Positions 9,511 through 44,964 of a stretch of DNA of 46,012 nt are shown here, one piece after another; position 1 is the first letter of the stretch; every line of letters begins with the position of its first letter. Origin of the DNA: a virus; IMG/VR virus record IMGVR_UViG_3300042866_001605, positions 1-46,012 of that record; one strand, 5' to 3'. Position numbers and translations under genes: made by a program. Under the pieces are notes generated by a model. It was not told the origin of the DNA. It saw only the letters and a program-made list of their open reading frames with translations, and searched no databases.

Positions 9511-9520
9511 GTTTTTACCC
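9511..9520 (-). promoter_or_regulatory. GGGTAAAAAC element before the tail operon
   Basis: GGGTAAAAAC on the minus strand overlaps the TAG stop of the exonuclease gene and lies 10 nt before the next ATG. The flanks extend the match with the copy at 16326 to 15 bases (TAGGGTAAAAACACC). It marks the switch from replication genes to tail genes. Confidence 0.55.
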
Positions 9521-10503
9521 TACAGCTTGAATGGTGCCTCGATGCCTACTGTGGCGAAGGCCCGCAGTGAGGAGTCGAAGTGGTCGGGTCGGGAGTTGGC
9601 GTTGGGATCGTTGAGTGTCTCCAGAAGGGTTCCGTAATCCTGAAAGACAGTCTCGATGTTCCAATCAGGGTTGGCGTCACACAGGTCGAAGAGGCACTTT
9701 GGCGAGCCGGGTGGAAGGTTATCGCCCATGTCACCATGAAGAACCTTGTACTCAGCGAGATTCTTAGGGTGGTCCAGATCAAACCCCATCTTGTGAGCTG
9801 TGTGCTCCTTGACGCCAAGTTCACCGACAAGACGTTCCTGGATCTTCTCAGCGGGGAAGGGAACACGCGTGTTCGCGAAGTAAACTCGATGCGACTCGTC
9901 AACGAGCTGGGACCAGTCCCTATCGAGAGTGGAGAGGAGGATCTGCCGTCGGTGGACGATGTCCTCGGTCCTATCTCGGGAAGCTCGATAGATAGCACCC
10001 GCGAAGTCGTCAGCCTCGTAACCCTCGTGTGTGAAGACACCGTAATACTCCTGACAGTAATCCATTCCAGCGTTGAACACCAGCCAGAAGTCGTCCGTCT
10101 TCTCACCTCGAGTGCCCTTGTAACTCGTCTTCAGCGTCTCTCGTGGGACGTTCTGCGCCTCAGCGTAGTTGTCCCAAGCTTGGGAGACAACCTCAGACTC
10201 TGTCATGAACTTGTCACGCCAGTAGTTGCCGGTGTCGCGATAACGTGAGTCGGCGACGATGACGTAGCGGTAGGAGTGGCGCGGTAACATGTCCGGACCA
10301 CGTTGGATTTTTGCGGCCCACGCGGCACGAAGGAGCTTCTTCGCCACCTCCTCGGACACGAGCTTGGCCACCTTGTCGGTGTACCACCTCATGATGTCGT
10401 GTGCGTACACGTGAAAGTCGACGACGACGAGTGGTGCGGGCTCCCGCTCCAGCTCAAACACTTCCTCGAGTTTTGTCCGCGTGGGGAGAGCCCTGACTGT
10501 CAT
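9520..10503 (-). CDS. FEN-family 5'-3' exonuclease (RNase H-like)
   Basis: 327 residues. The acidic active-site ladder of FEN-family nucleases is present: D29 (VVVDF), D85 (VADSRY), the YKGTRGEKTDDFW motif (128-140), G-YEADDFAGA with E163, D165 and D166, STLDRDWSQLV with D194 and D196, and GDMGDN with D258 and D261. Phage members such as T4 RNase H and T5 exonuclease remove RNA primers and flaps or process ends during replication. The start overlaps the thyX stop by 4 nt (ATGA), fixing it at 10503. It ends the replication operon. Confidence 0.9.
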   Translation of the reverse strand: MTVRALPTRTKLEEVFELEREPAPLVVVDFHVYAHDIMRWYTDKVAKLVSEEVAKKLLRAAWAAKIQRGPDMLPRHSYRYVIVADSRYRDTGNYWRDKFMTESEVVSQAWDNYAEAQNVPRETLKTSYKGTRGEKTDDFWLVFNAGMDYCQEYYGVFTHEGYEADDFAGAIYRASRDRTEDIVHRRQILLSTLDRDWSQLVDESHRVYFANTRVPFPAEKIQERLVGELGVKEHTAHKMGFDLDHPKNLAEYKVLHGDMGDNLPPGSPKCLFDLCDANPDWNIETVFQDYGTLLETLNDPNANSRPDHFDSSLRAFATVGIEAPFKL

Positions 10504-11294
10504 TCTGATTTCGCTTTGAGTACGGCGATCTCGGAACGAAGCTCAATGACTTCCTTCCTGAGGCGCTCGGTTTCGTCAACACCCTTATTGTAGCTCCAGT
10601 CTAGGGAGCCGTAAACCGTTGGGAAGACATTTGCGAAGACCGACTTACAGGCTCGGGCGAGCTCGACGTGCTCGAACTGAGCGACACCCTCGTCATCACG
10701 CACCCCAATGTAATGGATCCAACTGCGGCAAGAACCTGTAACGTACAGACGGCTATAAACGCCCTGCGGGAGAACGAATCTTGCGACCTCCTTAGCGATT
10801 CCACGGTCGAGAAGATCCTTGTAGCACTGAGTCGCGACCGTGTAAGCGGTGGACATAGTGCCCCACATCTCATCGGTGAGGTCTCCGTGACCAGCTGGTA
10901 TGCTGTTCTGTCGGTTTTTAGGATCCTGGACACGCGCTTCCTCCGGCACGTAGAACATGTTGAAGTGCGCCGACAGTCCGTCGGTGTGGTTCTTCATCTC
11001 CTGCTGGTCCTCGTACCGTCCGGAGAATTGCTGAAAGCAAAAACTTCGATGACGCAGAAGCTGCACGGCAATGGCAAGGGGGGTCACCACCTCCACCGTC
11101 ATGCTCGCCTGCTCGAACACCGACCAGTGACCGTGTTTGGCGCAGTATCTGAGGAGACGATCGACATTGGGATTCGTCTGATCCTTGGAGGTCACACGAG
11201 CGATGTAGCCCATTATGGCCTCAGGATCGGGGGTGTGGCTCACCAGTCGCGCTTTGCTGGAGCCTTCGATGAGCCAGGGGTTGGTGTTTTCCAT
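10500..11294 (-). CDS. thyX: Flavin-dependent thymidylate synthase ThyX
   Basis: 264 residues. The ThyX signature RHRx7S is complete: R81-H82-R83 and S91 in RHRSFCFQQFSGRYED, preceded by HGHWSVFEQ. ThyX methylates dUMP to dTMP with methylenetetrahydrofolate and FADH2, supplying thymidylate for phage DNA synthesis. It is common in phages of aquatic bacteria. The last 25 residues form a helix predicted to be coiled. It is coupled by TGATG to the gene before and by ATGA to the exonuclease after. No key residue is missing. Confidence 0.96.
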   Translation of the reverse strand: MENTNPWLIEGSSKARLVSHTPDPEAIMGYIARVTSKDQTNPNVDRLLRYCAKHGHWSVFEQASMTVEVVTPLAIAVQLLRHRSFCFQQFSGRYEDQQEMKNHTDGLSAHFNMFYVPEEARVQDPKNRQNSIPAGHGDLTDEMWGTMSTAYTVATQCYKDLLDRGIAKEVARFVLPQGVYSRLYVTGSCRSWIHYIGVRDDEGVAQFEHVELARACKSVFANVFPTVYGSLDWSYNKGVDETERLRKEVIELRSEIAVLKAKSE

Positions 11295-11635
11295 CAGAAT
11301 TTGATAATGTCGTCGGCCATACCGCCACGGACACCGCTATTGAAGTCAACAGGGATGTGGTCCTTAGGGTCGGAAGAAGTGTAAGGATAGAAACCGTCGG
11401 AGGTGTTGAAAAGTATATCGTTGAGACGACCCTGATAATCGGGAGTGTTGATCTTACGAGGCACGCACCGAATAGTCTCACCCTCATCGAAGATATAGCC
11501 TGCGGCGGTCAAAAACCGCTGGAAGTACTCGCACATCTCATCAATGACGCGCTCGGGCATCTCCATCGTGATCTCAGTCGGATGGCTGAAATCACTGAGT
11601 TCGGTGTAACTGAAGACGAATTTGGTTTGGGTCAT
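11294..11635 (-). CDS. Conserved-looking hypothetical protein, 113 aa
   Basis: 113 residues between the DEDDh exonuclease and thyX, starting 1 nt after the exonuclease stop and ending in a TGATG overlap with thyX. It contains a helix ITMEMPERVIDEMCEYFQRF and ends GGMADDIIKF. The style resembles small helper proteins in replication operons of large phages. No function can be assigned. Confidence 0.7.
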   Translation of the reverse strand: MTQTKFVFSYTELSDFSHPTEITMEMPERVIDEMCEYFQRFLTAAGYIFDEGETIRCVPRKINTPDYQGRLNDILFNTSDGFYPYTSSDPKDHIPVDFNSGVRGGMADDIIKF

Positions 11636-11636
11636 G

Positions 11637-12797: not shown

Positions 12798-12805
12798 ATG
12801 GTGTT

Positions 12806-12814
12806 GGGTAACAC
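12806..12814 (+). promoter_or_regulatory. GGGTAACAC element before the plus-strand gene
   Basis: GGGTAACAC on the plus strand, 24 nt before the ATG at 12839, is a variant of the GGGTAAAA element seen before minus-strand genes. It is the only good match on the plus strand and precedes the only plus-strand gene. Confidence 0.45.
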
Positions 12815-12838: not shown

Positions 12839-13588
12839 ATGACCCCTCAGGAAACCCTCGGCCTAAACAAGGGCCAATTCACTCAGAAGGTGGGCCGCAT
12901 CATCGACAACAATCGCGCGAATTCCCGCCTCATCGGCGAACCGCGCGACTTTATCCTCCGCGTTTGCAGACTCGCGGCGCGGTGGGAGAAACTCGCACAG
13001 AAAACCGACACGCAGGTGTATCTCCGCTACTTCGATATGGCGGGCGGGAGACGAGTGAAGATGATCTCCCTCGAGGGTGGTGGCTCCAGGCAACCCGTCC
13101 CGAAGGCGAAACTCATCGAGGCGCTATATCCTACCAAAAAGATCGCCACCACTGCAACCCTAGAGGAGAAGCATTTCAACACCGTCAAGGCAGCGATGCG
13201 CCGTGGGGTGGAGCAACAGCTCCGTGATTACAAGGCGACCACGAGCTACCCGATCGAGTGCCTGGTGACGGGGCGCCTTCTCAGGAAGGGGACGAGGGTC
13301 GACATCGACCACCACGGGAAGCCCTTCGCGCAGCTTGCGGACGAGTGGGTGAACCATAACATGCTGACGTACGCGGACATTATACTCTGTGGGCCGCCGA
13401 CTGGGAAGAGGATCAAGGACGACGCGCTGTGGGAGTCGTGGAAGGAGTGGCACCTTGAGCACGCGAGGCTCGCGGTGGTGTGCGCGAAGGCAAATAGATC
13501 AAAAGGCGCAGCGGGATACGCTACGCCTGTGGAGTTGCTCGGGACGTTCAAGCCCCAAGCAGAGGATGAGATCGATCTCGATTTTTAG
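12839..13588 (+). CDS. Putative nuclease-like protein, the only plus-strand gene
   Basis: 249 residues. A basic helical N-terminal half is followed by TSYPIECLVTGRLLRKG and TRVDIDHHGKPFAQL. The C-x-x-TG ... D-x-DH ... PF-x-x-L arrangement recalls HNH/DCL-like (DUF3223-type) phage and bacterial proteins in which the DH is functional. I cannot confirm the fold. It ends AEDEIDLDF, an acidic-Phe tail like the SSB-like protein and the DEDDh exonuclease, suggesting shared partners. The stop codon overlaps the convergent fibre-accessory gene by 4 bp. Alternatives are a DNA-binding regulator or homing-type element. The last call is weak because the gene is well integrated. Confidence 0.55.
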   Translation: MTPQETLGLNKGQFTQKVGRIIDNNRANSRLIGEPRDFILRVCRLAARWEKLAQKTDTQVYLRYFDMAGGRRVKMISLEGGGSRQPVPKAKLIEALYPTKKIATTATLEEKHFNTVKAAMRRGVEQQLRDYKATTSYPIECLVTGRLLRKGTRVDIDHHGKPFAQLADEWVNHNMLTYADIILCGPPTGKRIKDDALWESWKEWHLEHARLAVVCAKANRSKGAAGYATPVELLGTFKPQAEDEIDLDF

Positions 13589-14649: not shown

Positions 14650-15444
14650 TTAGGATTTAGCGCAGAGGATAGCGTCTACGTATTGGACGGCCAAATTGAG
14701 AGTTCCTCCGTTGAAGGAAGCGCTACCACTCACGGACACTCCAGAAACGGAGTGGGAGTGACTCTGGTTGTTACCATTGAAGGAACCCGAACCGGACGCG
14801 GAGTGGGTGTGGCTTCCGCTACCTCCAGCCGCACCTGTATTATCGCCCTGCTGGTCATTCACACCCTGCTGCTGGCCCATTTTGCCACCGTTAGCAGGTC
14901 TTTTCTGATAGTTGTGAACGTGGGAAGGCAGCTCATTAGTAGAGATAGACGTACCACCAACGCTCAAACCCGAAAGACTGATGCTACCAGACGGCGTCTG
15001 GTTAACGGTGTTGGTACTTCCCCCACTCGCTGAGAGACCGGAGAGAGAAACACTACCAGTTACGGGAACAGATGTGAATACTGATGTGAATGGCTGGGCG
15101 CCGCCTGTAGCGCCACCATTACTGTTAACTACACGCACCGCTTTGTTATTCTGCGTGGTGACCTGAGTCCATCCGGCGGGAGCCGAAGCCTGGATGAACA
15201 TTGTCACGGTGCCGGCAGGAAAGTCACCGGAGCCAGACGCAGAAGCGTTGATCGTCACCGTTCCAACGCCAGAACTGGGACTGATCGTAATGTTATTCCC
15301 GGCGCGGATCTCAGAAACCACCTCTGCTGGGTTGATGCTAATCGCACCGTCCGGAGATATCGAGATCCCAGTGCCTGCTCTCACGGCACCAATAACCCCA
15401 GGACCTCCAGGGGCTTGCATCAGTTGGGCTAGATTTAGGGCCAT
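14650..15444 (-). CDS. Short tail fibre with His-x-His sites, paralogue A
   Basis: 264 residues. The N-terminal module (AQLMQAPGGPGVIGAVRAG, GTGISISPDGAI) is followed by FPAGTVTMFIQASAPAGW, Ser/Gly beta repeats (SGSVSLSGLSASGG type), the helix-like NELPSHVHNYQKRP, then HVH, HTH and HSHS pairs and the C-terminal VQYVDAILCAKS. HxH pairs in short fibres coordinate metal along the trimer axis. About half of its residues match the next gene upstream, with the same module order, so the two are a tandem duplication. It probably binds a host surface receptor. Confidence 0.75.
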   Translation of the reverse strand: MALNLAQLMQAPGGPGVIGAVRAGTGISISPDGAISINPAEVVSEIRAGNNITISPSSGVGTVTINASASGSGDFPAGTVTMFIQASAPAGWTQVTTQNNKAVRVVNSNGGATGGAQPFTSVFTSVPVTGSVSLSGLSASGGSTNTVNQTPSGSISLSGLSVGGTSISTNELPSHVHNYQKRPANGGKMGQQQGVNDQQGDNTGAAGGSGSHTHSASGSGSFNGNNQSHSHSVSGVSVSGSASFNGGTLNLAVQYVDAILCAKS

Positions 15445-15483: not shown

Positions 15484-15492
15484 GTTTTACCC
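15484..15492 (-). promoter_or_regulatory. GGGTAAAAC element before short fibre A
   Basis: GGGTAAAAC on the minus strand overlaps the stop codon of the preceding fibre gene (TAGGGGTAAAAC) and lies 39 nt before the ATG at 15444. The leader has no Shine-Dalgarno. Confidence 0.5.
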
Positions 15493-16293
15493 CTAGTTGG
15501 AGAGTTTTCTACAGACAATCAGATCGATGTATTGGACGGAGAAGTCGAAGCTGCCTCCGCTGAATGAGGCGTTACCGGTGACGGGAGCACTGAAGGAGTG
15601 ATCGTGACTGTAGGAGTTTCCAGAGAATGAGCCGCTTCCCGAAAGAGAGTGAGAGTGACCACCGCTAGATCCCGTAGCACTTGTGGTATCACCCTGGTTA
15701 TCTTGAATGCCCTGCTGCTGGCCCATTTTGTTACCGCCTGCTGGTCTTGGCTGGTAGTTGTGGTTGTGCGAGGCGATTTGAGCCGTGGAAACTGAGGTGG
15801 CTCCTAAAGACAGTCCCCCCAAAGAGATCGATCCACTTGCCACCTGTGAGGCGCTTGTCGTGTTTCCAGACGCGTTAACCCCACTGAGAGAGACGGAGCC
15901 AGTGAAAGTTTTTGAGCTGAAGACAGCATCCCATGCCTGACTACCGCCTGTACCGGCGCCGGCTGTGGAAACAACTCGAAGCATCCGCGTCCCGAGTTGT
16001 TCCGTGATCCAATTCGGAGGAGCGCCGGTTTGGAAGAACGTCATAACTGTTCCAACCGGGAGCAGTTTGGTCGGGTCTGGGGCGATAGTGGCAGATATCG
16101 TTACTTGGCCGAGTCCTGGATTCGGCAGGATCGTGATGTTATCGCCCGGGAGAATCCGGCTACAAAAAGCGTTTAAGTCCGCCGAGACAGCACCCGTGAC
16201 AGCATCAATGGTGATACCGCTTCCCGCCTTAACGGCCCCTCTAACCCCAGGGCCATTTGGGGGAACCATAAGTTGTGCATTACTTAGGGGCAT
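15493..16293 (-). CDS. Short tail fibre with His-x-His sites, paralogue B
   Basis: 266 residues, same architecture as the following gene: AQLMVPPNGPGVRGAVKAG, LPVGTVMTFFQTGAPPNW, SGSVSLSGVNASGN, ASHNHNYQPRPAGG, GGHSHSLSGSGSFSG, SHDHSF and the C-terminal VQYIDLIVCRK. The core and C-terminus are closest to paralogue A, while the segment after residue 35 is divergent. Two related receptor binders from separate transcription starts could be a mixed or alternative tip. Confidence 0.75.
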   Translation of the reverse strand: MPLSNAQLMVPPNGPGVRGAVKAGSGITIDAVTGAVSADLNAFCSRILPGDNITILPNPGLGQVTISATIAPDPTKLLPVGTVMTFFQTGAPPNWITEQLGTRMLRVVSTAGAGTGGSQAWDAVFSSKTFTGSVSLSGVNASGNTTSASQVASGSISLGGLSLGATSVSTAQIASHNHNYQPRPAGGNKMGQQQGIQDNQGDTTSATGSSGGHSHSLSGSGSFSGNSYSHDHSFSAPVTGNASFSGGSFDFSVQYIDLIVCRKLSN

Positions 16294-16325: not shown

Positions 16326-16335
16326 GTTTTTACCC
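16326..16335 (-). promoter_or_regulatory. GGGTAAAAAC element before short fibre B
   Basis: GGGTAAAAAC on the minus strand overlaps the TAG stop of the preceding gene, 32 nt before the ATG at 16293. It shares TAGGGTAAAAACACC with the copy at 9511. Confidence 0.55.
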
Positions 16336-17276: not shown

Positions 17277-19331
17277 TCAGAACGGAGTCGAGTCAATCGC
17301 AATGCGTCCCCAGGTGTTGGGAGCGGTGCAAATGTAGAGGTAGTTGGCATCCCACGAAATCTCACCCGTGCTTCCCGTATCAGTTGACGAACCAGGGGTG
17401 AAGGTTGTGGACAGAATCAAGCTTCCCCCGCTAACGATGAGCGCATTGGAACCACCGGATCCGCCGGCGTTGACTGTAACGGGCCCTGTGAAGGTCGGGC
17501 TGTTGAGCGGAGCGTAGGTGGTTGCGGCAGCCGCACTTGTCAGTAGGCCAAGTTGAGCGGCCGTGCGCCAAGCGGGCAGACCCGCATTGACAGCGAGAAT
17601 CGAACCAGCGGTGCCAATTGGGAGAGAGGCTGGAGTGTTAGCGGCGGATGCGAAAACGATGTCGCCTGTGACATCCAGCAGAGTTGCGGAGATTGTTCCG
17701 GGGAACGTCTGACCGGCAGCGAATGTGATCGCTCCAGTCATGGTGCCACCAGCCAGTGGCAGCGTGCCCGTGAATGTTTGACCGGCGGCGAATGTGATAG
17801 CGCCGGTCATCGTACCACCAGCCAGTGGCAGCGTGCCCGCGAATGTCTGACCGGTGTTGAACACTATGTCTCCGGTCATCGTACCACCTGCGAGTGGCAA
17901 AGTTCCGGGGAATGTCTGAGTTCCAGTGAAGGTGATGTTGCCAGTCATTGTTCCGCCAGACAGCGGAAGCTGTAGGGCGGCCAGATCGTAGGCTTGACGA
18001 ACAGAGTTGGGCGTGGCTGCGGTCGTAGTGGAGGTGCTTCCAACTCCATCGAAGAGCTGAACGATACCAGCGGCCGTCGTACTCGCGGCGTCCACGCTAA
18101 TGACCGGGGTTGTGGTGCCAGTGGCCACTTGAACCGGGGCCGTGCCTGTGACACTCGAAACAGTTCCGGAACCGGCAGAGACCCACTCCACTCCCAGTGG
18201 CGCTAGGGAGTTAGCGGCCAAAACCTGACCGTCAGTTCCAACGGTAAGCTGACCATATCCCGGCGCCAAAGAGGAGCCGACAAGAATCCCACCAAGTTGA
18301 GTGAATGACGACTCAGGGATCACTCCGGGGAAAGGTTGACCGGCTACGAAGTCAATGGAGCCCGTCATTATCCCCCCGCCTAAGGGGAGCTTTGTGACGA
18401 CGGCGTCTGCGACGATCTTAACCGAGTTGGGAGTGGCGGCAAATCCGTCGACCTGAGAGGAGGTGGTCGAGTTGATGAGTTGAACGGAGCCGGCAACGGT
18501 GGTGGAGGCACTAACTACGCCGATGCTCGGGTTTGCCGAAGTGCCCGTGATGTTAATAGATCCGCCGGGTGTGGCGGTGATCGACTGCACGCCCGTTGAT
18601 GTTGTGGTCGCGCTTATACGACCATCAGCAGCGATGGTTACGTTATCACCCGCATACACCCCACCGATGTTGTTGGCGGCTCCTGTTCCAGCAGGTTGGA
18701 GGAATAGTGTGACGGCACCGGTAGTTCCACCACCGCCCAATCCAGTGCCAACACCGACGCCAGTGATAGTTCCACCGGATCCAGTAGCGTTCAGTGTTCC
18801 GTCTGGCAAAACAGTGCAGCCCGTCCCTGGCTTAATACCACCGATAAACAGAGACGAAGCCGGACGGAGAGTTAGGGCTCCACTTGGAGCCAGACTAAGG
18901 CCGCTGGTTGCGCTCGCTGGAACAATGACAGAGCCCAAAACCGAGTTGGTGGCCGCCAAAGCCGAAATCGAGTAAGCGTCGCCACCGAGATCCACAACAT
19001 TGATTCCAGGACCCCCAGTGATCTGCACATTCACTACGGAGCGAATGACACCGTCGGAATCGATCGAGATACCTGATCCATCGATCGTTTTAACGCCACC
19101 AAGCGAGGTTCCCTGAGGAGGCAGAAGACCCAGAAACACTGTTGGCCCTGTTCCACCACCCTGAATGCCATTGCTGGGAACGACATTACTGATGGTGCCC
19201 CCGCTGGCAGTGGAAGATATGGTGCCGTCTGGAGCAATAGACACCCCCGGGCCAGCCTTCACGGCGCCGATTGGAGTAGCACCTGTGCCGCTTCCAGGCG
19301 GCTCCATAAATTGAGCTTTGACGAATGCCAT
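17277..19331 (-). CDS. Tail fibre protein with 23-residue GTMTG repeats
   Basis: 684 residues. The N-terminus has the IGAVKAGPGVSIAPDGTI module, followed by several copies of a GTGLGGG...IGGVKPG...PDGTL unit. ATPNSVKIVADA and ATPNSVRQAYDLAAL precede LPLSGGTMTG-type repeats (about residues 455-545), then a small C-terminal beta module ISWDANYLYICTAPN. This is a classical trimeric phage fibre. GAGGGA, 8 nt before the ATG, is a clear Shine-Dalgarno. Confidence 0.8.
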   Translation of the reverse strand: MAFVKAQFMEPPGSGTGATPIGAVKAGPGVSIAPDGTISSTASGGTISNVVPSNGIQGGGTGPTVFLGLLPPQGTSLGGVKTIDGSGISIDSDGVIRSVVNVQITGGPGINVVDLGGDAYSISALAATNSVLGSVIVPASATSGLSLAPSGALTLRPASSLFIGGIKPGTGCTVLPDGTLNATGSGGTITGVGVGTGLGGGGTTGAVTLFLQPAGTGAANNIGGVYAGDNVTIAADGRISATTTSTGVQSITATPGGSINITGTSANPSIGVVSASTTVAGSVQLINSTTSSQVDGFAATPNSVKIVADAVVTKLPLGGGIMTGSIDFVAGQPFPGVIPESSFTQLGGILVGSSLAPGYGQLTVGTDGQVLAANSLAPLGVEWVSAGSGTVSSVTGTAPVQVATGTTTPVISVDAASTTAAGIVQLFDGVGSTSTTTAATPNSVRQAYDLAALQLPLSGGTMTGNITFTGTQTFPGTLPLAGGTMTGDIVFNTGQTFAGTLPLAGGTMTGAITFAAGQTFTGTLPLAGGTMTGAITFAAGQTFPGTISATLLDVTGDIVFASAANTPASLPIGTAGSILAVNAGLPAWRTAAQLGLLTSAAAATTYAPLNSPTFTGPVTVNAGGSGGSNALIVSGGSLILSTTFTPGSSTDTGSTGEISWDANYLYICTAPNTWGRIAIDSTPF
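17690..17965 (-). repeat. 69-bp tandem repeats in the fibre gene
   Basis: Four copies of a unit coding for LPLAGGTMTGxIxFxxGQTFxG, with conserved TCA positions spaced exactly 69 bp apart (17738, 17807, 17876, 17945). The high DNA identity points to recent expansion or homogenisation by recombination. Confidence 0.85.
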
Positions 19332-19349: not shown

Positions 19350-19358
19350 GTTTTACCC
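19350..19358 (-). promoter_or_regulatory. GGGTAAAAC element before the 684-aa fibre
   Basis: GGGTAAAAC on the minus strand. The TAA inside it is the stop codon of the 161-aa gene, and the element ends 18 nt before the ATG at 19331. The short leader carries GAGGGA as Shine-Dalgarno. Confidence 0.5.
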
Positions 19359-21610: not shown

Positions 21611-22705
21611 TTAGATACCTAGCACCTGGCAGTTGAATGTGGCCCCAGCTGGAGGCGGAGACGAGAACACTATATTGCTTCCACTCAACGAGTAAGCCTG
21701 ATTAGGTGTTTGGAGAACGCCACCAACGGCCACGAACAACGAGGCGGCGGAGGCGGGGTTGTAGATCTGTCCGCCAACTCGCAGTCCGAATGATGTATTC
21801 ACCCCATTGAACTGGGACGAGATGTCGTCGATCTGCTGAAAGGACTGACCGTTGGGAACGAACAGTCTCCCACTAAACGTAGTTCCAATGGGTGGAGCAG
21901 CTACAAACTTGATCTCCTCGTTGTTGATAACCGTGAAAGTGGCGGGTGTAGGCTGGAGAATACCGCCGAGAACGATGAACAGGTTGGCGGGCTGCGTTAC
22001 GGTCTGAAGGCCGCCGTTCACCGTGAGCGGAAACTGGGTGCGTCCACCGTCAAACAGCGGAGCGATATTGTCCAGGATAACGAAAGCGCCCGTGGCACCT
22101 TGACCACCAGCCGCACTGATGGTTCCGTCCGACGCGATGGTGATGTTATTGCCCGCCTTCACACCGCCAATGTTTCCTCCCGCGGGTGGCCGCAGGAAGA
22201 TTGTGCCGGTGGTTGAGATTGTGCCACCGCCGAGACCAACACCGGCCGTGATGCTCGTAACACCCGACAGAGCGGTGAGTGTGCCGTCCGGAAGGATGGT
22301 GACACCAGATCCCGCTTTCACACCGCCGATGTTGGGACCCGAAGGCGGAAGAAGTGAGATCGTGCCGGAAGTCGTAATGGGACCTCCTGTTAGACCGACG
22401 CCGGTATTCACGGACTTAACGGTGCCGATACTCGCTGGCAACGTATCTAATTTCTGCTTGTCAGCCGCCGACAGAGATCCGGCGGAGGCTATAGTGGCTG
22501 GCCGGATATTGACGACAGGGACTGAGGCAGTCCCGGTAATTACGATAGGCTCATTGCCCAGAACCTGAAGTACGGCTCCGGAAATCAAAACCCACACCCC
22601 CTTGTTCGTCACCCATTTGTACTGGAACGTACCAGGGATGGCTGGGTCAGGATACACCTGACCGTCAAAGGGGTTGTTTGGAAAGTTATAGGGTGTGAAT
22701 GCCAT
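21611..22705 (-). CDS. Modular tail fibre protein with two FDG modules
   Basis: 364 residues, the longest of the DGQLYP group: FPNNPFDGQVYPDP, helix GSLSAADKQKLDTL, three PDGTL-type repeats, then two successive C-terminal modules beginning DNIAPLFDGGRTQFPL and DDISSQFNGVNTSFGL, each with VGGILQ-like and APPxGxTF motifs. The tandem arrangement suggests a domain duplication. The next gene starts 1 nt after the stop. Confidence 0.68.
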   Translation of the reverse strand: MAFTPYNFPNNPFDGQVYPDPAIPGTFQYKWVTNKGVWVLISGAVLQVLGNEPIVITGTASVPVVNIRPATIASAGSLSAADKQKLDTLPASIGTVKSVNTGVGLTGGPITTSGTISLLPPSGPNIGGVKAGSGVTILPDGTLTALSGVTSITAGVGLGGGTISTTGTIFLRPPAGGNIGGVKAGNNITIASDGTISAAGGQGATGAFVILDNIAPLFDGGRTQFPLTVNGGLQTVTQPANLFIVLGGILQPTPATFTVINNEEIKFVAAPPIGTTFSGRLFVPNGQSFQQIDDISSQFNGVNTSFGLRVGGQIYNPASAASLFVAVGGVLQTPNQAYSLSGSNIVFSSPPPAGATFNCQVLGI

Positions 22706-22740: not shown

Positions 22741-22750
22741 ACTTTTACCC
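22741..22750 (-). promoter_or_regulatory. GGGTAAAAGT element before the DGQLYP fibre operon
   Basis: GGGTAAAAGT on the minus strand overlaps the TAG stop of the collar fibre and lies 35 nt before the ATG at 22705. The element is flanked by AGGG and CCCT, which could pair weakly. No Shine-Dalgarno is seen. Confidence 0.5.
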
Positions 22751-26997: not shown

Positions 26998-28563
26998 TCA
27001 GAGCTTAATGATGGGCAGAAGTGCGATGTTCTTCGGACGAGTTTCCGTTCCACCGGTTTCGCTGATAGCTTCGCCGCCTCCCTGAGGAATGGGGGTCACG
27101 TTACCAGCCGAGCTCCTTTGTCCAGTTTGCTGCTGGTCCGTATTAGGTGCGAGCACACCTCTGACATCCTTGAAATTAGCGACGTAATCGCAAGTGCTGA
27201 GGGTTAGTGTGTGCCGGTGAGTGCCAAAGCTGTCGTTTTGGTAGGAGCCAAAAACTCGCGCGTTATCGACACCTCCCGAAGATCGGTTGTCCCAACCACG
27301 AACGAACTGACCACGAAGATCGGGGACTTGGAATTGAGTGGAAGGAACTGTGAGTCCCGTGTAAATGCGGCCAATCGCCGCGTAAAGACTTGGATAGGTG
27401 GCCGTGTTGAGCACCGCGCCGTTGCAGTAGAGCCAACCCGCAGGTGCTGTGTTTCCGGCGAACCACTGAACGGTGCCAGAGGGAAGGAAGCCTGGAGGGA
27501 CTGGATCGGCCGCTAGAACGCCCGAACTGGTGATGTTCAAGCCCTGACCGACGATAACTCCACCTATGGCGCCATTGGTCGCCGGTTGGACGAATATGGT
27601 ACCATCGCCAACGACAGAGAGACCGGCGCCAGGCTTCACCCCACCGATTGAGCCGCTGGTGGCCGAAGCGAGGCCGATGGTGCCGGTGGTCGTAATCGGA
27701 CCGCCTGTGATTCCATTTCCTGTTTGAATCTGCGTGACGGTACCTGTTCCGGCGCCCGCCATATTGATCGTGCCATCGGGATCGATGGTGACGTTAGTTC
27801 CCGGTTTAACACCGCCAATCTCACTAGCGGAGGCTGGCTTCAGAAGTAGAGTCCCTTGGGTTGTGATCGGTTGACCGTCTGAGGTGGTCAGGCCAGTGCC
27901 CGCATCGATCTTGGTAACCGTACCGCCCTGTCCCGCATTGATTGCGCCAGCGCCAGCGATTTGGACCCAGAGTTTCTCCGGGCCACCGTCATTGAATAGG
28001 ACGAATAGGGAGCCAGTGTCATCGTTCCACCACAGAGTTCCCGCAGCGGTGATGGACGGGTTGGGTTGTTGGTCGGAGATGATGACGGCTCCGCCGCCAC
28101 CCGAACCGCCAGCACCCACCTGCACCCACTGCCGGCCGTTGGGGTCCTCATAGAGGACGTACATCTCCCCGTTGTAGTCGTTCCACCAGAGTGCGCCTTC
28201 AGGGTAGGCTTCCAGATCTGGTGGAGTGGTCTGAACCACAACTTTGGCGAAACCTTGCTCCGAGGGGTCACAATCGGCCCAGATAACGCCGGTCCAGATT
28301 TTGAGTGTCTGGGCGTTGACGTCGAACCAAAGTTCACCCTTGGAGTTGCCTACCGAGCCGACCGCGTTGGTGTTCGGAGGGGTTGTCCCTACAAAGCAAG
28401 GGCCGATCTTGGTGAGCAGCCCATTGCTATTGGCGAAGAATAGCCCCGGTTCTCCTGCGTCGATATTGACTGCTGGCTGTCCCGCTAGCAGCTGAGTGGG
28501 ATCCGGACGGTCATTAGGGACACTGGACCGGAGTAATTGAATCTGAGTTGCAGAAACAGCCAT
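26998..28563 (-). CDS. Large tail-collar fibre
   Basis: 521 residues. The N-terminus ([22 protein letters not shown] ... [13 protein letters not shown]) resembles the first residues of the 3,164-aa protein, so both may dock to the same virion site. Two GELWFDVN / [16 protein letters not shown] modules and PDGTL-type repeats follow. The collar domain is [21 protein letters not shown] ... [15 protein letters not shown], and the C-terminal is [16 protein letters not shown]. Unlike its relatives it has no HxH array, only HRHTL. Confidence 0.82.
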
Positions 28564-28604: not shown

Positions 28605-28614
28605 GGTTTTACCC
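28605..28614 (-). promoter_or_regulatory. GGGTAAAACC element before the collar-fibre operon
   Basis: GGGTAAAACC on the minus strand contains the TAA stop of the 3,164-aa gene and lies 41 nt before the ATG at 28563. It would start the five-gene collar/collagen operon, 28563 to 22750. Confidence 0.5.
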
Positions 28615-38116: not shown

Positions 38117-38151
38117 GAGTGCGAGCCCGTGAAGACGGGCTTTTAGCACTC
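38117..38151 (-). promoter_or_regulatory. Two-tier hairpin in the leader of the giant fibre gene
   Basis: Minus strand: GAGTGC, TAAA, AGCCCGT, loop CTTC, ACGGGCT, C, GCACTC. Stems of 6 and 7 bp are both perfect. It starts within the GGGTAAGAG element and ends 13 nt before the ATG region. In the minus direction there is no U tract. In the plus direction ACGGGCTTTT could terminate antisense transcripts. Confidence 0.6.
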
Positions 38152-38157
38152 TTACCC
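38149..38157 (-). promoter_or_regulatory. GGGTAAGAG variant element before the giant fibre gene
   Basis: GGGTAAGAG lies 6 nt after the stop of the 53-aa gene and 45 nt before the ATG at 38103. It is one mismatch from GGGTAAAA and in the same position relative to genes as the exact copies. Confidence 0.4.
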
Positions 38158-38161
38158 AGGC

Positions 38162-38323
38162 TCAGAGATAGGCGCCACCGGCGATGGCGTCCTCACTCAC
38201 GTTGCCCCTATCAGCCAGAGCGAGAGCCGCGTCAAGGTACTTCATGGCACCTTGCGGATCACTTCGCCGGTTGAGTTTGTACTTGTCCATCAGCGCGATG
38301 TACTTCTTGTCGTCAGATGCCAT
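38162..38323 (-). CDS. Small hypothetical protein, 53 aa
   Basis: 53 residues from the ATG at 38323 (MASDDKKYIALMDKYKLN), overlapping the kinase-like gene by 11 nt. A longer version from 38380 would overlap that gene by 68 nt and is rejected. Two helices (DKKYIALMDKYK and AMKYLDAALALADRGN) are likely. No function recognised. Last gene before the fibre locus. Confidence 0.6.
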   Translation of the reverse strand: MASDDKKYIALMDKYKLNRRSDPQGAMKYLDAALALADRGNVSEDAIAGGAYL

Positions 38324-40553
38324 CGTAAAGAACCTCGATAACTTGCCTTGCTTGAGCGTCAGTGAGTTTGCCCATGCCACGTGTGCTGAAGGACTTCTCG
38401 TTGGAGCGAATGCCGTGAGTTATCACGTCGGCCACGTCCTGATCGGTGAGGCCAAAACTCTTCAGCTTCTTTATAGCTTTTTCCTTGTTCTCGAGCACCC
38501 TTGCTGCGGTTGGGAATCTCCGTGCGAACTCAGCCTTCACTGCGGGACTGGTGGACAGCTCGGCGTTCACCATCTCCTTTCCCGCGGTACCGTCCCAGCG
38601 TCGAACTTGCCAGTCTCCGCCCATGGAGCCACCTCGCTTAATGGCCCCTTGAGGAACTCGGGTGAATACTCCCATGGCCTCGGCGAGTGCGGCTTTAGGT
38701 CCGGCTTGGGCCAAGCCCATATCCACAAAGCGGCCGTTTCCATTCCTATCAATGAAGACGTTCTCGATGTGCATGTCGTTATGGGCGATGCCCATACGGT
38801 GGAGTTTGGCCCGAGCTTCCCAATAGACGTCGGAGACAACTTTACCAGTCTTGCCGACTGGATCGTCACCTTTCTTCTTGCCGATTGGTGAGCCGGGAAC
38901 TCGCGTCATGGCGATGCGACCGTCGTGAGTACCTCTCTCGTAACCAGGACCATCATACTGCGCGGCGATCAGTTTTGGACCGAGGTCGACTTTCCCGATT
39001 CGGTCAATGAGTTTCGCCTCATTCTCACCGACAGTTCCGCGCTTGACGACCACGTCGTTTTTGTCCACAATGGCTGTGCCGTAGGCGCCCTCTCCAAGGA
39101 GTTTGGCTCCCTTCTTGAGCGAGTTGCCCCAGACGAAATCCTCCTTGCCCATCTGCATCTGGGTGTCCCTCTCGACACGCTCGTCGAGCCTCATCATGTT
39201 TTCGTGAGTCCACTTACTCACTTTCTGAGGGAGGCCAGCAGGATATAACGGACGTCTAGAGAGTCCACGTCTCGCCAACTCATCCTCGACATCCTTCGCC
39301 TCACCCGCTTTCCCTTGACGAATGAAAACGCTATATTGATCACGAAGTTCCTCGTCGCCCCACTTCTTCCATTTGCTGGGATCCGCGGGATTCGCCTTGG
39401 CTCGTCTCAGCATTTCGGCCTCGATCTCCTTCACCATGTCGTCCTTCCCAAGTTGTTTCGCGGCCTGAAGTCGATTGCGAAGTTGGTCATCAGCAAACTT
39501 GCCCCACGCATTGGGAGCTCCCGCGGCTTGGGCCTTTTGTTGGGCTTGCTTATTGGCCTGCCCCGCACGCCGAGCTCTTTCCCTTCGCAGAGCGTCCAGC
39601 CTCACCATCGCCTCAGGGCTACCATCCTTGATGTAGTGCTTCTCGAGATCGTCGAGATCCTTCGGATTGAGCGCTCGGAAAAGCTTGGAATCGGCGGGAG
39701 GTAGATTTTTAGCCTTGACGCTATTACTCTCCAGTTTGGCGGCGGCTTGATTTTCGGCATCGAATTTAGCTTTAACCGCTGCCGCTTCTCTCTTTAAGGC
39801 TGACGGGGTTTCTTTTTCGCCACGAATTCGCAAATTCATCTGAGCGACCGCTTCTATCCCTGGCGGAATAGGTTTGGACTTCCCAGCGTCCATCTTCGCC
39901 CTCTCGTCGAGAGCCTTCTGAATCTTGTCCCGCTGGTACTTGTAGGGGGCTCGCTGGAGGTACTCCTCGAGCTTCTCCTTCGGTGCCTTGGCGAGGAATC
40001 CGGCGTTGATCTGACGTGAGAGGTTCTTGTTAGGCTCGGGAGCGGGAGCGGGCTCAGCGGACTTCGGCTTGGCGGTCCGGATGTTACCGACAATCGCTTT
40101 AAGATTCCTATCGGCCTCGGACTTCATCCTGGCGTTTCTCTCGTCCTGCTCCCGCTTGGCGGCCGCTTTCTCGTCGGCGAGTTTTTGACCTTCACGCCTC
40201 ACAGCGGATGGGGTTACCTTCTCACCGCGGCCCTCCAGGTTCAGTTTGGCGGGAAGGGTGTAGCCAGTTCCCCGGCCGTCGTCCTTCACGGACGGCTTTT
40301 TGGTCGGAGCCTCCGTCGCCGGCTTTCCGGCACGGCGGGCCAACTCCGCCTCGATGGCTTTTCGCTGATACTTGTAGGGAGCTCGTTGGAGGTACTCTTC
40401 CAGCTTTTGGGTGGTAGCTTTGGCTAGGAAACCCTTTCCCACTCGATTGGAGAGAGCCTCCTCCTGTCCCTTGCGGCACTTGCCGCTAGTTCCGTACGCG
40501 CTACCGTCTGGGCGCACGCACCGTGTAAAGTCGTAGAAGTCCTGTTCGTTCAT
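38313..40553 (-). CDS. Protein-kinase-like protein with N-terminal helical repeats and Cys-pair tag
   Basis: 746 residues. Start ATG at 40553 (TGATG overlap). Residues 1-30 carry FTRCVRPDGSAYGTSGKCRKG. Two copies of GFLAKAxxxKLEEYLQRAPYK (about 40-75 and 185-220), each followed by an RGEKxTPSA segment, and three W/F-D-x-ELR type helical repeats lead into a kinase-like domain. That domain has a glycine loop GEGAYGT (487-493), K504 in VVVKRG, catalytic loop HNDMHIEN (591-598, D593, N598) and D611-M-G for the DFG position. All key residues of an active eukaryotic-like or RIO/Bud32-like kinase are present. It probably phosphorylates a host or virion protein. The gene lies in the structural region, so the protein may travel in the particle. 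Confidence 0.8.
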   Translation of the reverse strand: MNEQDFYDFTRCVRPDGSAYGTSGKCRKGQEEALSNRVGKGFLAKATTQKLEEYLQRAPYKYQRKAIEAELARRAGKPATEAPTKKPSVKDDGRGTGYTLPAKLNLEGRGEKVTPSAVRREGQKLADEKAAAKREQDERNARMKSEADRNLKAIVGNIRTAKPKSAEPAPAPEPNKNLSRQINAGFLAKAPKEKLEEYLQRAPYKYQRDKIQKALDERAKMDAGKSKPIPPGIEAVAQMNLRIRGEKETPSALKREAAAVKAKFDAENQAAAKLESNSVKAKNLPPADSKLFRALNPKDLDDLEKHYIKDGSPEAMVRLDALRRERARRAGQANKQAQQKAQAAGAPNAWGKFADDQLRNRLQAAKQLGKDDMVKEIEAEMLRRAKANPADPSKWKKWGDEELRDQYSVFIRQGKAGEAKDVEDELARRGLSRRPLYPAGLPQKVSKWTHENMMRLDERVERDTQMQMGKEDFVWGNSLKKGAKLLGEGAYGTAIVDKNDVVVKRGTVGENEAKLIDRIGKVDLGPKLIAAQYDGPGYERGTHDGRIAMTRVPGSPIGKKKGDDPVGKTGKVVSDVYWEARAKLHRMGIAHNDMHIENVFIDRNGNGRFVDMGLAQAGPKAALAEAMGVFTRVPQGAIKRGGSMGGDWQVRRWDGTAGKEMVNAELSTSPAVKAEFARRFPTAARVLENKEKAIKKLKSFGLTDQDVADVITHGIRSNEKSFSTRGMGKLTDAQARQVIEVLYDGI

Positions 40554-41239
40554 CACGCTTCACCGAGTTCCTCTTCGTCTTCCTCGTCGTCGGAATCTTC
40601 CTCATCCTCGGGGGAGTTGGACTGACCGGGATCAGCGCCGGCGTCACCACCAGCGGACTTCATCTCGGCGAATCGCAGAATGGCCTCCTCGAGACGGGCG
40701 ATCTTCTCGTCATTCTCGTTGATGGCCTCGGCGTAATCACGGAAGGGGTTGGCCTCGTCCTGGTGATTCTGCGACTCGTACATCATACCATCGTTCATGC
40801 CACGCTGGGTACGGCCGAGATCGTTCACCATCATCTTGGCCTCGACCGCCGAGATCGCCTTCAGGATCTGATTGCGCTCCTTGACGATGCGGTGCTCCTC
40901 CTGAAAGTTGCCCAGCTGCCGGGCACGACGGAGGCGGCCATTCAGACTCTCCTGAACTTTCATGAGGCGGGTGAGTTCACCCTCCATCGAGTTGTACTCG
41001 CCGGTGCCCTGCTCCTCGCCGTAATTGAAGGTCGGGGGACCACTGCCACGTGGCTGATTGCCGTAGAAGGCGGAGTGTGGCTGCCACGGCTCATCCTCCT
41101 TTTTGAGCTTGCTCACCTGAGGGGAGAGAACCGGTACGTCCTCGGCGTCGATTCCAGTGCCGTGGAAGCCGCGTTCTGAGTAGCTGTAGAGTTCATACGC
41201 CTGCTTAAGCGCGGCGTCGGCGATCGAATCTTTGCGCAT
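40553..41239 (-). CDS. Hypothetical coiled-coil protein with acidic tail
   Basis: 228 residues. A helical centre (about 85-205: GELTRLMKVQESLNGRLRRARQLGNFQEE... and later ENDEKIARLEEAILRFAEM) is predicted to form coiled coils. The last 25 residues are almost all Asp/Glu. This shape occurs in scaffolding and chaperone-like phage proteins, but no family match is claimed. It is coupled by TGATG to the kinase-like gene and preceded by GGGTAAAACC. Confidence 0.6.
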   Translation of the reverse strand: MRKDSIADAALKQAYELYSYSERGFHGTGIDAEDVPVLSPQVSKLKKEDEPWQPHSAFYGNQPRGSGPPTFNYGEEQGTGEYNSMEGELTRLMKVQESLNGRLRRARQLGNFQEEHRIVKERNQILKAISAVEAKMMVNDLGRTQRGMNDGMMYESQNHQDEANPFRDYAEAINENDEKIARLEEAILRFAEMKSAGGDAGADPGQSNSPEDEEDSDDEEDEEELGEA

Positions 41240-41251: not shown

Positions 41252-42397
41252 TTACGAAGGTTTTACCCGTGGATCCTTACCGAAGATCGCCACGTACCAC
41301 AGAGCTAAGGAATTGGGGCCAACGACTTCAGAGAATGAGAGGAATGTGTCCGTCTTACTCTGCTCCTCCTTTGTTGAGGGGACGAGCACGCCGTCTTTGA
41401 GTCGACCGTAGATGTTTTCACCTGGCGTCGCCTTGGAGAAGCCCATCTTCTCGTACGCCCTCTGTCTGGAGGCGCCCTTACCGTCCTCGGAGTAGGCGTA
41501 CGTCCGCATGACGTAGCCCTCAGGAAGGGAACCCAGAACGGCATTGAAGCAACGTTGTACCTGCCTCGCCACAGCCATCTCCTCCTTTCGGCCCTGAGTC
41601 ACCGTTCCAGCCTCGTAGGTGCCATTCACCTCGAAGTTGAAGCTGTTTCGGCCGAATGTCGTGCTGACGACGTTTCCACCGGGCGTCGTGAATTCGGTCT
41701 TAATCATGCCCATGGGCGTTATACTGACTTTTGTTCCTGCCGGGACATTGGAGACGATGCTATCGAGGACTCTCTGGCTATTTTGGAAGGGCTCCAATTG
41801 CTTCAGATTCTTCTCAAGCTCACCCTTCATGGAGTCGGCCATGTCGGGATACTTCTCCATCACCATTTTGGCGTGGTCGATCTGTCTCTTGATGGCATCA
41901 ACACCGGGGCCTCCAGTGAGTTTGCTCGAGTCACCCTCAAAGGTGCCACCCTTCTCGAAGCTCTCCTCTCTCGGCTTTTTAGGAGATGACTTGGGAGCTT
42001 CCTCAGCCTTGGGCTCCGCTTTTGGCTTGGGCGCCTCCTCAGGCTCGTCCTGACCGAATCTCGAGCGATTGACGGTCAGTTTTGCGAAACTGGACTTCAA
42101 CTCCACTGTATCGCCATCACGAGTAGCTGTCCACTTATCACCGGCATCCGATTTGAAAGTCGTGCTCTCACCGTCAGCGAGTTTGCCAATGGCACTCTGA
42201 TTCTCATCGAGGAGAACGACACTTTCGCCGCCTCCCGACACTTTCATTGTGGAGCCCCAGCTGTACTTTTTGATCTCAATGGCGCTCTCCACACCTTTAC
42301 GGCAGGTTCCCGCGGTGCCGTATGCGGTACCGTCCGGACGCTCGCATCGTACGAAATCCAGAACCTTGAGTGCTTCTTCCGAGAAACTGCCTAGCAT
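41252..42397 (-). CDS. Hypothetical protein with Cys-pair tag and acetyltransferase-like C-terminal motif
   Basis: 381 residues from the ATG at 42397 (TGATG overlap; the GTG at 42400 is rejected). Near residue 20: CERPDGTAYGTAGTCRKG, nearly identical to the tag in the kinase-like protein. A Pro/Lys/Glu linker (about 115-150) follows, then a domain with GYVMRTYAYSEDGKGASRQ and RAYEKMGF ... YGRLKDG. The RxxAYEKMGF pattern recalls the last motif of GNAT acetyltransferases, but I cannot see the acetyl-CoA loop, so this is weak. Probably virion-associated. Confidence 0.6.
   Translation of the reverse strand: MLGSFSEEALKVLDFVRCERPDGTAYGTAGTCRKGVESAIEIKKYSWGSTMKVSGGGESVVLLDENQSAIGKLADGESTTFKSDAGDKWTATRDGDTVELKSSFAKLTVNRSRFGQDEPEEAPKPKAEPKAEEAPKSSPKKPREESFEKGGTFEGDSSKLTGGPGVDAIKRQIDHAKMVMEKYPDMADSMKGELEKNLKQLEPFQNSQRVLDSIVSNVPAGTKVSITPMGMIKTEFTTPGGNVVSTTFGRNSFNFEVNGTYEAGTVTQGRKEEMAVARQVQRCFNAVLGSLPEGYVMRTYAYSEDGKGASRQRAYEKMGFSKATPGENIYGRLKDGVLVPSTKEEQSKTDTFLSFSEVVGPNSLALWYVAIFGKDPRVKPS
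41259..41268 (-). promoter_or_regulatory. GGGTAAAACC element before the coiled-coil/kinase operon
   Basis: GGGTAAAACC lies in the last codons of the 381-aa gene, 19 nt before the ATG at 41239. A second weaker CGTAAAAG follows at the stop codon. Here the element is inside coding sequence, unlike most copies. Confidence 0.45.
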
Positions 42398-43002: not shown

Positions 43003-43006
43003 TGTG

Positions 43007-43363: not shown

Positions 43364-43854
43364 CAGCGCATTCTCCCGGAGACGACCTTGTTCTTGATCC
43401 CTCGCTCAATGGCGTCCGCCGAACGAGCCTTCGCACGCTCCTCAGGGGTCATCGCGGCGAGTTCCGCCTCACGCTTGGCGCCCTGACCGCTCGCCATGTT
43501 CACCTCGAGGTGAGCTTGCATGGCCTTTTTCATGGCGTTGAGGATACCCTCCTTCGCGTCGAGGTCGTCGTTGTCCAGATCCTTGATGGCCTTCTTATGA
43601 ATGCGACCCAGATCCTTCGTGTCTTTGGCCTTGGCGTAGCGCTCCTCGAACACCTTCTCGTGCGCGTCATCGAAGGAGCTTCCCACGTCAGCCCTGATGG
43701 CTTCGGTCACATCCTTGTATCCGGCACCGCCACCAATGTGGCAAGTCTTGGATGCTGGAATGTGCGAGGCGCCGCAGGGTTTTCCAGTCCCCTTGCCCTC
43801 ACCAAAGGACGGTGAACCAGCACTCGGACCGGCGATGAGCGGCTTACGCTTCAT
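43363..43854 (-). CDS. Hypothetical protein with Cys-pair tag
   Basis: 163 residues. GKPCGASHIPASKTCHIGGG near residue 26 is the clearest C-x10-CH tag, almost the same as in the 224-aa protein. The rest is helical and charged (DDAHEKVFEERYAKAKDTKD, AMTPEERAKARSADAIERG). The start overlaps the microgene by 4 nt (ATGA). Unknown function. Confidence 0.62.
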   Translation of the reverse strand: MKRKPLIAGPSAGSPSFGEGKGTGKPCGASHIPASKTCHIGGGAGYKDVTEAIRADVGSSFDDAHEKVFEERYAKAKDTKDLGRIHKKAIKDLDNDDLDAKEGILNAMKKAMQAHLEVNMASGQGAKREAELAAMTPEERAKARSADAIERGIKNKVVSGRMR

Positions 43855-43946
43855 CCCTTCCAGCAGGCGTCCTTCAGGTCGCCGGTAGCCTTCTCTGTGT
43901 AGCCCAATCCGAGGAGGCGATCAAAATCGTAGTCTTCAAGGTTCAT
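43851..43946 (-). CDS. 31-residue microprotein
   Basis: ATG at 43946, stop TGA at 43851. Translation begins MNLEDYDFDRLLGLGYTEK and ends DACWKG. Both ends overlap neighbours by 4 nt in ATGA form (43943-43946 and 43851-43854), exactly the spacing used by accepted genes here. Without it there would be an 88-bp gap in an otherwise gapless operon. One Cys and one Trp near the end. Function unknown. Confidence 0.75.
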   Translation of the reverse strand: MNLEDYDFDRLLGLGYTEKATGDLKDACWKG

Positions 43947-44233
43947 TGTCTGTGGTGGGTCCAGTCCCGGACTGACGAGATCTCCTCGCGGATGTCGCGA
44001 AGTTGTTGGGTGATGTGGCTGTGCCACTGCTCTTCGGCGTGCATGTGGGAGAGTAGTTCCTCCTTAGTCACGTAGGACTTAGGAATCTCCACACGCAACT
44101 CGGTGAGTGTGTGTTGCACCTTACTCAAGGTGTTGGTCATCTCGTCAAGGTTTCTCTTACCGAGATACAGGATGACGGAGAGAATGAAGCCGGTCAGAGG
44201 TCCGGCGATCGCGAAGATAACGTGTAGCGGCAT
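43943..44233 (-). CDS. Small membrane-anchored coiled-coil protein, holin-like candidate
   Basis: 96 residues from the ATG at 44233 (TGATG overlap). One hydrophobic helix at residues 4-24 (HVIFAIAGPLTGFILSVILY) is followed by a positively charged stop and about 70 residues of coiled coil with HMHAEEQWHSHI and REEISSVRDW. Such single-pass proteins occur as holins or spanin-like partners, but equally as virion membrane proteins. No lysis enzyme lies next to it. Confidence 0.45.
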   Translation of the reverse strand: MPLHVIFAIAGPLTGFILSVILYLGKRNLDEMTNTLSKVQHTLTELRVEIPKSYVTKEELLSHMHAEEQWHSHITQQLRDIREEISSVRDWTHHRQ

Positions 44234-44934
44234 CACCCAGGCAGACCAGAACCACCTTCGGCGAGACGTTGTTTGACCGAGTCAGGGAGTGCCGACTCCA
44301 GACCCATCTCCTTAGCGATGCGGATGATGTTGCGCATGATCTGACGCTGATTTCCGCCAGCACGACCAACTGCGTGCCACGCGGCTTTCACGTCGGTGGC
44401 GTTCGAGATCGGGAAGCTGGTGCCTGGACCAGCGAATTTGCCCTCAATCTCACCCGACTTCAATTCCTTGCGCTTCTCAGTGCTCCACTCGCGGTACTCG
44501 GCGTCTTGGCGCTTCTTATTCCGACAGGAGGCACATGTCCCACAGGAACAACCCTCATCAAATGAGGGCATGAACGAACCCATCGCGAGGTACTCGTCCT
44601 CCTGTTCGGAGAACACGTACTCCTTCGACTTCAATTCGCGATGTTCGGCGGCGCGGAGGGAGCGGCGACCCATAATCTCGCCCATCGCCTGACCACCGTC
44701 GGCGTACTCGTTCATGTCGCGATTGATCAGGTTCACCCTGCTCTCACGACGCTCTTTATGGTTGGCGAGACGAAGCTCGTTATGATCGGTCTTACCGATG
44801 GTCATGAAACCCTCCTTGTTGACACCAGCACCCCACTTGCGTTTCTGCTTGTTCTCCTTTTCCAGTGAGGGGTCAGATTGAGCGTTGGAGGCGTTGATCA
44901 TGCCACCAACGCCAGGCAGAACTACGCCGTCCAT
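44233..44934 (-). CDS. Hypothetical protein with CxCxxCxxC cluster
   Basis: 233 residues. At about 129-137 CSCGTCASC forms a tight cluster that probably binds zinc or is redox active. The C-terminal 65 residues (FPISNATDVKAAWHAVGRAGG ... ALPDSVKQRL) resemble a helical domain found at the end of several phage structural and environmental phage proteins. The N-terminal half is charged and helical with GRRSLRAAEHRELKSKEYVFSE. It follows a GGGTAAAAAC element. Confidence 0.55.
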   Translation of the reverse strand: MDGVVLPGVGGMINASNAQSDPSLEKENKQKRKWGAGVNKEGFMTIGKTDHNELRLANHKERRESRVNLINRDMNEYADGGQAMGEIMGRRSLRAAEHRELKSKEYVFSEQEDEYLAMGSFMPSFDEGCSCGTCASCRNKKRQDAEYREWSTEKRKELKSGEIEGKFAGPGTSFPISNATDVKAAWHAVGRAGGNQRQIMRNIIRIAKEMGLESALPDSVKQRLAEGGSGLPG

Positions 44935-44954
44935 GCGATGTCAGAAACTGAGTT

Positions 44955-44964
44955 GTTTTTACCC
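44955..44964 (-). promoter_or_regulatory. GGGTAAAAAC element before the 44.9-41.3 kb operon
   Basis: GGGTAAAAAC contains the TAA stop of the 224-aa gene and lies 20 nt before the ATG at 44934. No Shine-Dalgarno is present. It would serve the chain of overlapping genes from 44934 down to 41252. Confidence 0.5.

Follow-up and report, generated by a model that had tools for sequence, protein, structure and literature searches.

The octamer GGGTAAAA as a probable single-element late promoter in phages related to Synechococcus phage S-CBWM1

Introduction

The viral DNA analyzed here (IMG/VR record IMGVR_UViG_3300042866_001605, positions 1 to 46,012; hereafter "the window," meaning the whole stretch of 46,012 nucleotides, nt) is a linear 46-kb fragment with genes for phage tail, thymidylate synthase, and exonuclease. 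The octamer GGGTAAAA recurs in front of its genes. What does this octamer do, and which protein reads it? We consider it highly probable that GGGTAAAA is a single-element late promoter of the phage clade that contains Synechococcus phage S-CBWM1, and that it is most likely read by the phage sigma factor gp045. Its function as a promoter is the part of this proposal that we predict with the greatest confidence. That the reader is gp045, rather than the second phage sigma, gp055, or a host sigma, is a reasonable though less secure assignment.

The window is a fragment of a phage related to S-CBWM1. That phage was reached by tblastn with the window tape measure protein; megablast of the middle of the window against phage records gave no match. 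Among 38 window proteins, 17 had tblastn matches in S-CBWM1 and 26 in the IMG/VR relative G031. The window and the S-CBWM1 annotation share the gene order DnaQ-like exonuclease, thymidylate synthase, "polymerase," tape measure; the window thymidylate synthase itself had no tblastn match in S-CBWM1.

The octamer in the window

GGGTAAAA is present eight times in the window, always on the minus (coding) strand and never on the plus strand, as reported in the initial annotation. Shuffled versions of the window are expected to hold 0.55 +/- 0.72 copies, and none of 100 shuffles reached eight. The hexamer GGGTAA is not in excess (13 found, 12.06 expected), so that the octamer is the signal unit. In a de novo count upstream of the window genes, it was the sole octamer listed with at least four upstream copies (seven of its eight). 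Each copy lies just before a gene start, as had been claimed; the claimed spacing of 10-41 nt needs correction, the distances to the start codon being, for sites in ascending order, 12, 40, 34, 19, 37, 43, 21, and 22 bases. The sharing of 15 bases by two copies also holds and concerns 9520 and 16335. At 19358, 28614, and 44964, the preceding gene ends within the motif, whose TAA serves as its stop codon, an overlap that had likewise been noticed. Sigma-70 consensus promoters occur at chance level between 9000 and 28999, terminator-like sites are below chance there, and an Rfam search of the window matched no family.

The octamer in S-CBWM1

S-CBWM1 carries GGGTAAAA 33 times on the coding strand and once on the other. 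All 33 coding-strand copies stand 7-103 nt before the annotated start of a coding sequence (CDS) or tRNA gene, 20 of them at 30-39 nt; 29 are intergenic or overlap the preceding stop codon, whereas four fall inside a CDS, toward its 3' end. Equal frequency on the opposite strand or inside genes, named in the initial annotation as evidence against the element, is thus not what this genome displays. Two copies precede tRNA genes, at distances of 39 and 18 nt, so that a role in translation alone is disfavoured. The genes directly after the octamer include those for portal, head maturation protease, major head, tape measure, and tail fibre proteins; no exact copy is present between 26.7 and 47.4 kb.

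Among the one-letter variants in S-CBWM1, only two appear functional, judging by strand and position: AGGTAAAA (9 versus 1 by strand, six in upstream regions) and GGGTAAAT (4 versus 1, three in upstream regions). The variant GGGTAAGA occurs twice on the coding strand, neither time in an upstream region.

S-CBWM1 also contains a dispersed repeat (L047, L048, L049; for example at record positions 26633, 65857, 126611, and 135656) with a core GATGTGAAAGATT followed by ACTGTCCC. It has eight copies (six plus, two minus), several of them immediately upstream of GGGTAAAA, and matched no Rfam family.

The octamer follows the gp045 family

Further relatives were picked solely because they encode a relative of gp045, without consulting the motif; the set is partly redundant and includes S-CBWM1. 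All 29 records contain GGGTAAAA, with a bias to the strand of the sigma gene (398 versus 18 copies in total: 161 versus 9 in the first ten records, 237 versus 9 in a second batch of nineteen with E below 1e-100). The same pattern read backwards gave 69 versus 20 in these records.

Twenty-three records found only via tail-fibre repeats lacked this excess, with 9 plus-strand and 16 minus-strand copies in all, and nothing comparable was seen in eight annotated phages with remote sigma relatives, which had 0-5 per strand. Counts per strand in cyanophages with remoter sigma genes were 1/0 (S-CBS2), 1/0 (S-CRES3), and 0/0 (S-CBS1), and no comparable octamer was found in the first 50 kb of S-CBS2, S-CRES3, and PSS2. 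Records G061-G063, which have remote gp055 relatives only, show no strand bias. Finally, among the 280 octamers of the same composition counted in six genomes, GGGTAAAA has 105 copies, 65 of them upstream of genes, and the other 279 average 16.4 and 0.71, respectively, the upstream counts being rough as they rely on a simple gene caller; the nearest rivals are shifted forms of GGGTAAAA itself.

Conservation of position and orientation

The sites in the window, each with the open reading frame (ORF) that it precedes and its counterparts in relatives, are as follows.

9513..9520 (-), GGGTAAAA: precedes ORF 8847-9500 (-); same place in S-CBWM1, G031, G033, and G034, after an exonuclease-like "polymerase" gene
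12806..12813 (+), variant GGGTAACA: 33 nt before 12839-13588, the sole plus-strand gene; own-strand element in six of six genomes
15485..15492 (-), GGGTAAAA: precedes ORF 14650-15444 (-); no syntenic copy found
16328..16335 (-), GGGTAAAA: precedes ORF 15493-16293 (-); loose counterpart in G006 only
19351..19358 (-), GGGTAAAA: precedes tail fibre ORF 17277-19331 (-); TAA is the preceding stop; no syntenic copy found
22743..22750 (-), GGGTAAAA: precedes ORF 21611-22705 (-); no syntenic copy found
28607..28614 (-), GGGTAAAA: precedes tail collar fibre ORF 26998-28563 (-); TAA ends an ORF of 3164 amino acids (aa); same place in S-CBWM1, G005, G031, G033, and G034
38150..38157 (-), weak candidate variant GGGTAAGA: 54 nt before 38103, the start of the 3164-aa ORF; not upstream-enriched in S-CBWM1
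41261..41268 (-), GGGTAAAA: precedes ORF 40553-41239 (-); counterparts ahead of the downstream gene in G005 and behind the upstream gene in G031, G033, and G034
44957..44964 (-), GGGTAAAA: precedes ORF 44233-44934 (-); TAA doubles as the stop codon of the gene before it; counterparts ahead of the downstream gene in G005 and at the end of the upstream gene in G031, G033, and G034

For four of the eight octamer sites (9520, 28614, 41268, and 44964), at least one relative has an element at the corresponding gene boundary, although the proteins are only 31-62% identical. In all six genomes, the lone divergent gene is preceded by an element that points the same way as the gene, at -32 to -38: GGGTAACA at -33 in the window, GGGTAAAA at -32 in G005 (the single plus-strand copy of that record), GGGTAAAG at -38 in G031, G033, and G034, and AGGTAAAA at -36 in S-CBWM1. 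Of the two variants proposed in the initial annotation, the plus-strand one is therefore borne out by the relatives; the one at 38157 is left unsupported by the positions of GGGTAAGA in S-CBWM1.

Anatomy of the element

Base composition was compiled from 186 non-redundant sites, the first G being counted as position 0. The base directly in front of the octamer is rarely T (0.03). After it, C is frequent at +8 (0.54), C or T follows at +9, positions +12/+13 favour T, and positions +14/+15 favour A. In the set formed by the window, G005, and G006, C is found at +8 (0.81) and +9 (0.77) and a purine at +15 in 0.93. No position near -35 is conserved in the 186 sites, and a search for a -35 partner found none (GTTT 14 versus 11 in a control stretch, TAGG 10 versus 10). 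The octamer itself has neither stem-loop nor T-run.

These frequencies suggest a start near +15 and, with it, the geometry of the box: with +15 as the start site, TAAAA(C/T) would span -12 to -7, where a -10 hexamer is expected, and GGG would extend it upstream.

Early and late halves of a relative

In the 190-kb contig G034, all 21 copies of GGGTAAAA are located at 101-190 kb. The sequence GCTATA(A/G/T)T is distributed differently: 11 of its 13 plus-strand copies are at 8-98.5 kb, with four further copies on the minus strand, and most are preceded by a CTTGCCTT-like sequence. This split may be read as host-type early versus phage-type late promoters, with the timing predicted.

Within the 8-98.5 kb part (L080-L084), the arrangement is CTTGCCTT, about 17 nt, then GCTATA(A/G)T, most copies directly following a GGCGGTTTCCC-type sequence that resembles a piece of a terminator. 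The paired boxes are likely early promoters.

Two phage sigma factors

The initial annotation had suggested looking for a phage sigma factor or RNA polymerase elsewhere in the genome. S-CBWM1 encodes two sigma factors, gp045 (241 aa) and gp055 (204 aa), and has no annotated phage polymerase. A search for the T7-type RNA polymerase with PF00940 gave no match and is uninformative, as the controls gave none either.

The best matches of gp045 are SigB/SigF/SigG and SigF models, the similarity being confined to regions 2-3, and an alignment of 15 gp045 relatives is nearly invariant across the stretch assigned to sigma regions 2.3-3.0. With the gp045 profile, the best complete sigma chain in a structure library was 8x6g_H, labelled "RNA polymerase sigma factor," which its aligned letters suggest to be SigB. 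The best matches of gp055 are generic sigma-70/ECF and SigK models. Both proteins match phrog_351, and T4 gp55 chains are absent among the structure matches listed for the phage sigmas. Predicted structures were poor and unusable (mean predicted local distance difference test score 49 for gp045 and 70 for gp055).

The -10 sequence of SigB promoters is GGG(A/T)A(A/T) according to the part of PMC8346170 consulted, and the pilA1 promoter of Synechocystis SigF has GGTAA at -12 and TAGGC at -32 in the section of PMC2758279 that describes it. Because gp045 has SigB/SigF-type matches and these sigmas use boxes of this kind, and because the gp055 matches are generic, gp045 is the better candidate reader. 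The lack of a region 4 match in gp045 would fit the absence of a -35 box.

Proposed mechanism and alternatives

In the proposed mechanism, GGGTAAAA would be the core of a one-element late promoter placed before blocks of virion genes, and a phage sigma, most likely of the gp045 family, would direct RNA polymerase to it. The polymerase would be that of the host, since none is annotated in S-CBWM1. Recognition would involve an extended -10 box in which GGG precedes TAAAA(C/T), the latter near -12 to -7, with no -35 box in use; the first transcribed base would be a purine some 15 nt beyond the first G. What the sequences show directly is the excess of the octamer, its strand and position, its conservation in relatives, the lack of a conserved -35, and the co-occurrence with sigma genes; we infer the promoter function, the start site, the late timing, and the sigma that reads the box. 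The suggestion in the initial annotation of a phage late promoter, with the element as its -10-like part, is thus well supported by strand, position, early/late partition, presence before tRNA genes, orientation at the divergent gene, and co-occurrence with phage sigma factors.

Several observations weigh against this proposal. In S-CBWM1, two octamers are separated from the annotated start by only 7 and 12 nt, which leaves no room for a start site at +15 if these start codons are annotated correctly. Four of the eight window sites, among variable tail fibre genes, are without a clear syntenic copy. Enrichment is weak in G057 (9 copies, 7 for the control pattern) and in G051 (one copy in 7.9 kb), and the de novo upstream count in G006 gave no octamer above threshold. 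The match of gp045 to the SigB/SigF/SigG model TIGR02980 is far below cut-off (53.4 bits against 234), covers positions 3-142 of 227, and ends before region 4. Lastly, no sigma gene was found in the window. This can be attributed to where the fragment ends, since in two relatives both sigma genes sit a few kilobases past the counterpart of the window left-end protein (match at 96.6-97.6 kb and sigma genes at 101.6 and 109.2 kb in S-CBWM1; about 172-173 kb, 177.9 and 183.4 kb in G034). Two short sigma-bearing fragments (L142, L145) were considered as parts of the phage of the window itself and dropped, sequence composition giving no support.

A late promoter read by gp055, with gp045 perhaps acting elsewhere or as a partner, is the least improbable of the alternatives, though unlikely. 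A gp055 homologue is present in nine of the first ten GGGTAAAA-enriched gp045 records, so that both sigmas co-occur with the motif and co-occurrence cannot tell them apart. Moreover, two fragments with a gp055 relative and no gp045 match are also biased (G058, 4 versus 0; G060, 7 versus 1), and the gp055 gene of S-CBWM1 has AGGTAAAA 32 nt upstream. However, the missing gp045 in G058 and G060 may simply reflect truncation of the fragments, and the generic sigma-70/ECF and SigK matches of gp055 are not of the SigB/SigF type that reads GGGTA boxes. Recruitment of a host SigF-type sigma by the phage late in infection is more doubtful still. The GGTAA at -12 in the cyanobacterial promoter described in the consulted part of PMC2758279 speaks for it, but the same promoter carries TAGGC near -32, whereas no enrichment of TAGG is seen upstream of GGGTAAAA; furthermore, S-CBS2, S-CRES3, and S-CBS1 show no excess of the motif, although host SigF is equally open to these cyanophages.

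The initial annotation had also considered a transcript-end or processing signal. Such a role at the RNA level, be it processing, termination, or enhancement of translation, now seems very improbable. The stop codon often found within the motif (three of eight window sites) could point that way, but it also fits compact packing. The distance to the start codon is too long and too variable for a ribosome site, two tRNA genes follow the octamer, hairpin and T-run are lacking, and the other half of G034 has TATAAT-type boxes instead.

Other features of the window and its relatives

The divergent gene at 12839-13588 (+) encodes a 249-aa protein, transcribed against its neighbours, with 53-56% identity in five relatives and no Pfam or PHROG match. 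ORF 38313-40556 (-) has weak similarity to protein kinases, and a RIO-like kinase is annotated at the matching place in S-CBWM1. The ribonucleotide reductase ORF of L058 (7024-9993) exceeds those of L052 and L055 by about 340 aa, a difference that an intein could account for; the S-CBWM1 annotation lists an intein in its own ribonucleotide reductase.

Comparison with known systems

Judged by the titles listed, the literature searched holds no report of GGGTAAAA as a phage promoter, and the consulted portions of papers naming S-CBWM1 mention no promoter; the original S-CBWM1 paper (Xu et al., 2018) was outside this scope, and an earlier report there is possible. The octamer supplies a candidate late-promoter word for a clade represented here by a single isolate and numerous metagenome fragments, allows operons to be drawn and fragments to be assigned from sequence alone, and names a sigma-plus-one-box system open to testing in vitro and in an isolated phage-host pair. 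If gp045 does read GGGTAAAA without -35 contact, it would be an independent counterpart of T4 gp55 for studying -10-only sigma action.

Overall, GGGTAAAA is a real and strongly conserved element of this clade, with a single box like that of T4 and SigB/SigF-like letters; a promoter function is very likely and the identity of its reader likely. T4 late promoters, described in part in PMC2988020, use TATAAATA with gp55, gp33, and gp45; this short box stands roughly one helical turn ahead of the start, and there is no -35. Both systems have a single short box without a -35 box, before virion genes, and, probably in the present case too, a phage sigma; the start predicted here would likewise put the box about one turn upstream. 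The box sequence differs, TATAAATA versus GGGTAAAA, in line with the dissimilarity to the T4 late box pointed out in the initial annotation. The gp45 clamp family PF02916 was matched in none of six records (five phage records and the window), a search run without a T4 positive control, in which remote clamps could be missed.

SigB/SigF/SigG promoters (GTTTAA-N12-14-GGG(A/T)A(A/T)) resemble the element in that its first six letters, GGGTAA, fit their -10, and models of these sigmas match regions 2-3 of gp045, which has no match to the full family (regions 2, 3, and 4). They differ by their GTTT -35 box, not found upstream of GGGTAAAA. The cyanobacterial SigF promoter shares the GGTAA contained in GGGTAAAA but has a TAGGC box that the octamer lacks, and here the exact octamer is repeated tens of times within a single phage. 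Ma-LMM01 is comparable as a cyanophage with temporal promoter classes; however, in the part of PMC5780444 consulted, all its classes resemble host SigA promoters and a gp55 homologue is absent. We suggest, tentatively and with some doubt, that phages of the S-CBWM1 clade captured a sigma of the SigB/SigF (stress-family) type, lost the region that reads the -35 box, and built a T4-like one-box late system on the rigid word GGGTAAAA, a convergence from a different sigma lineage.

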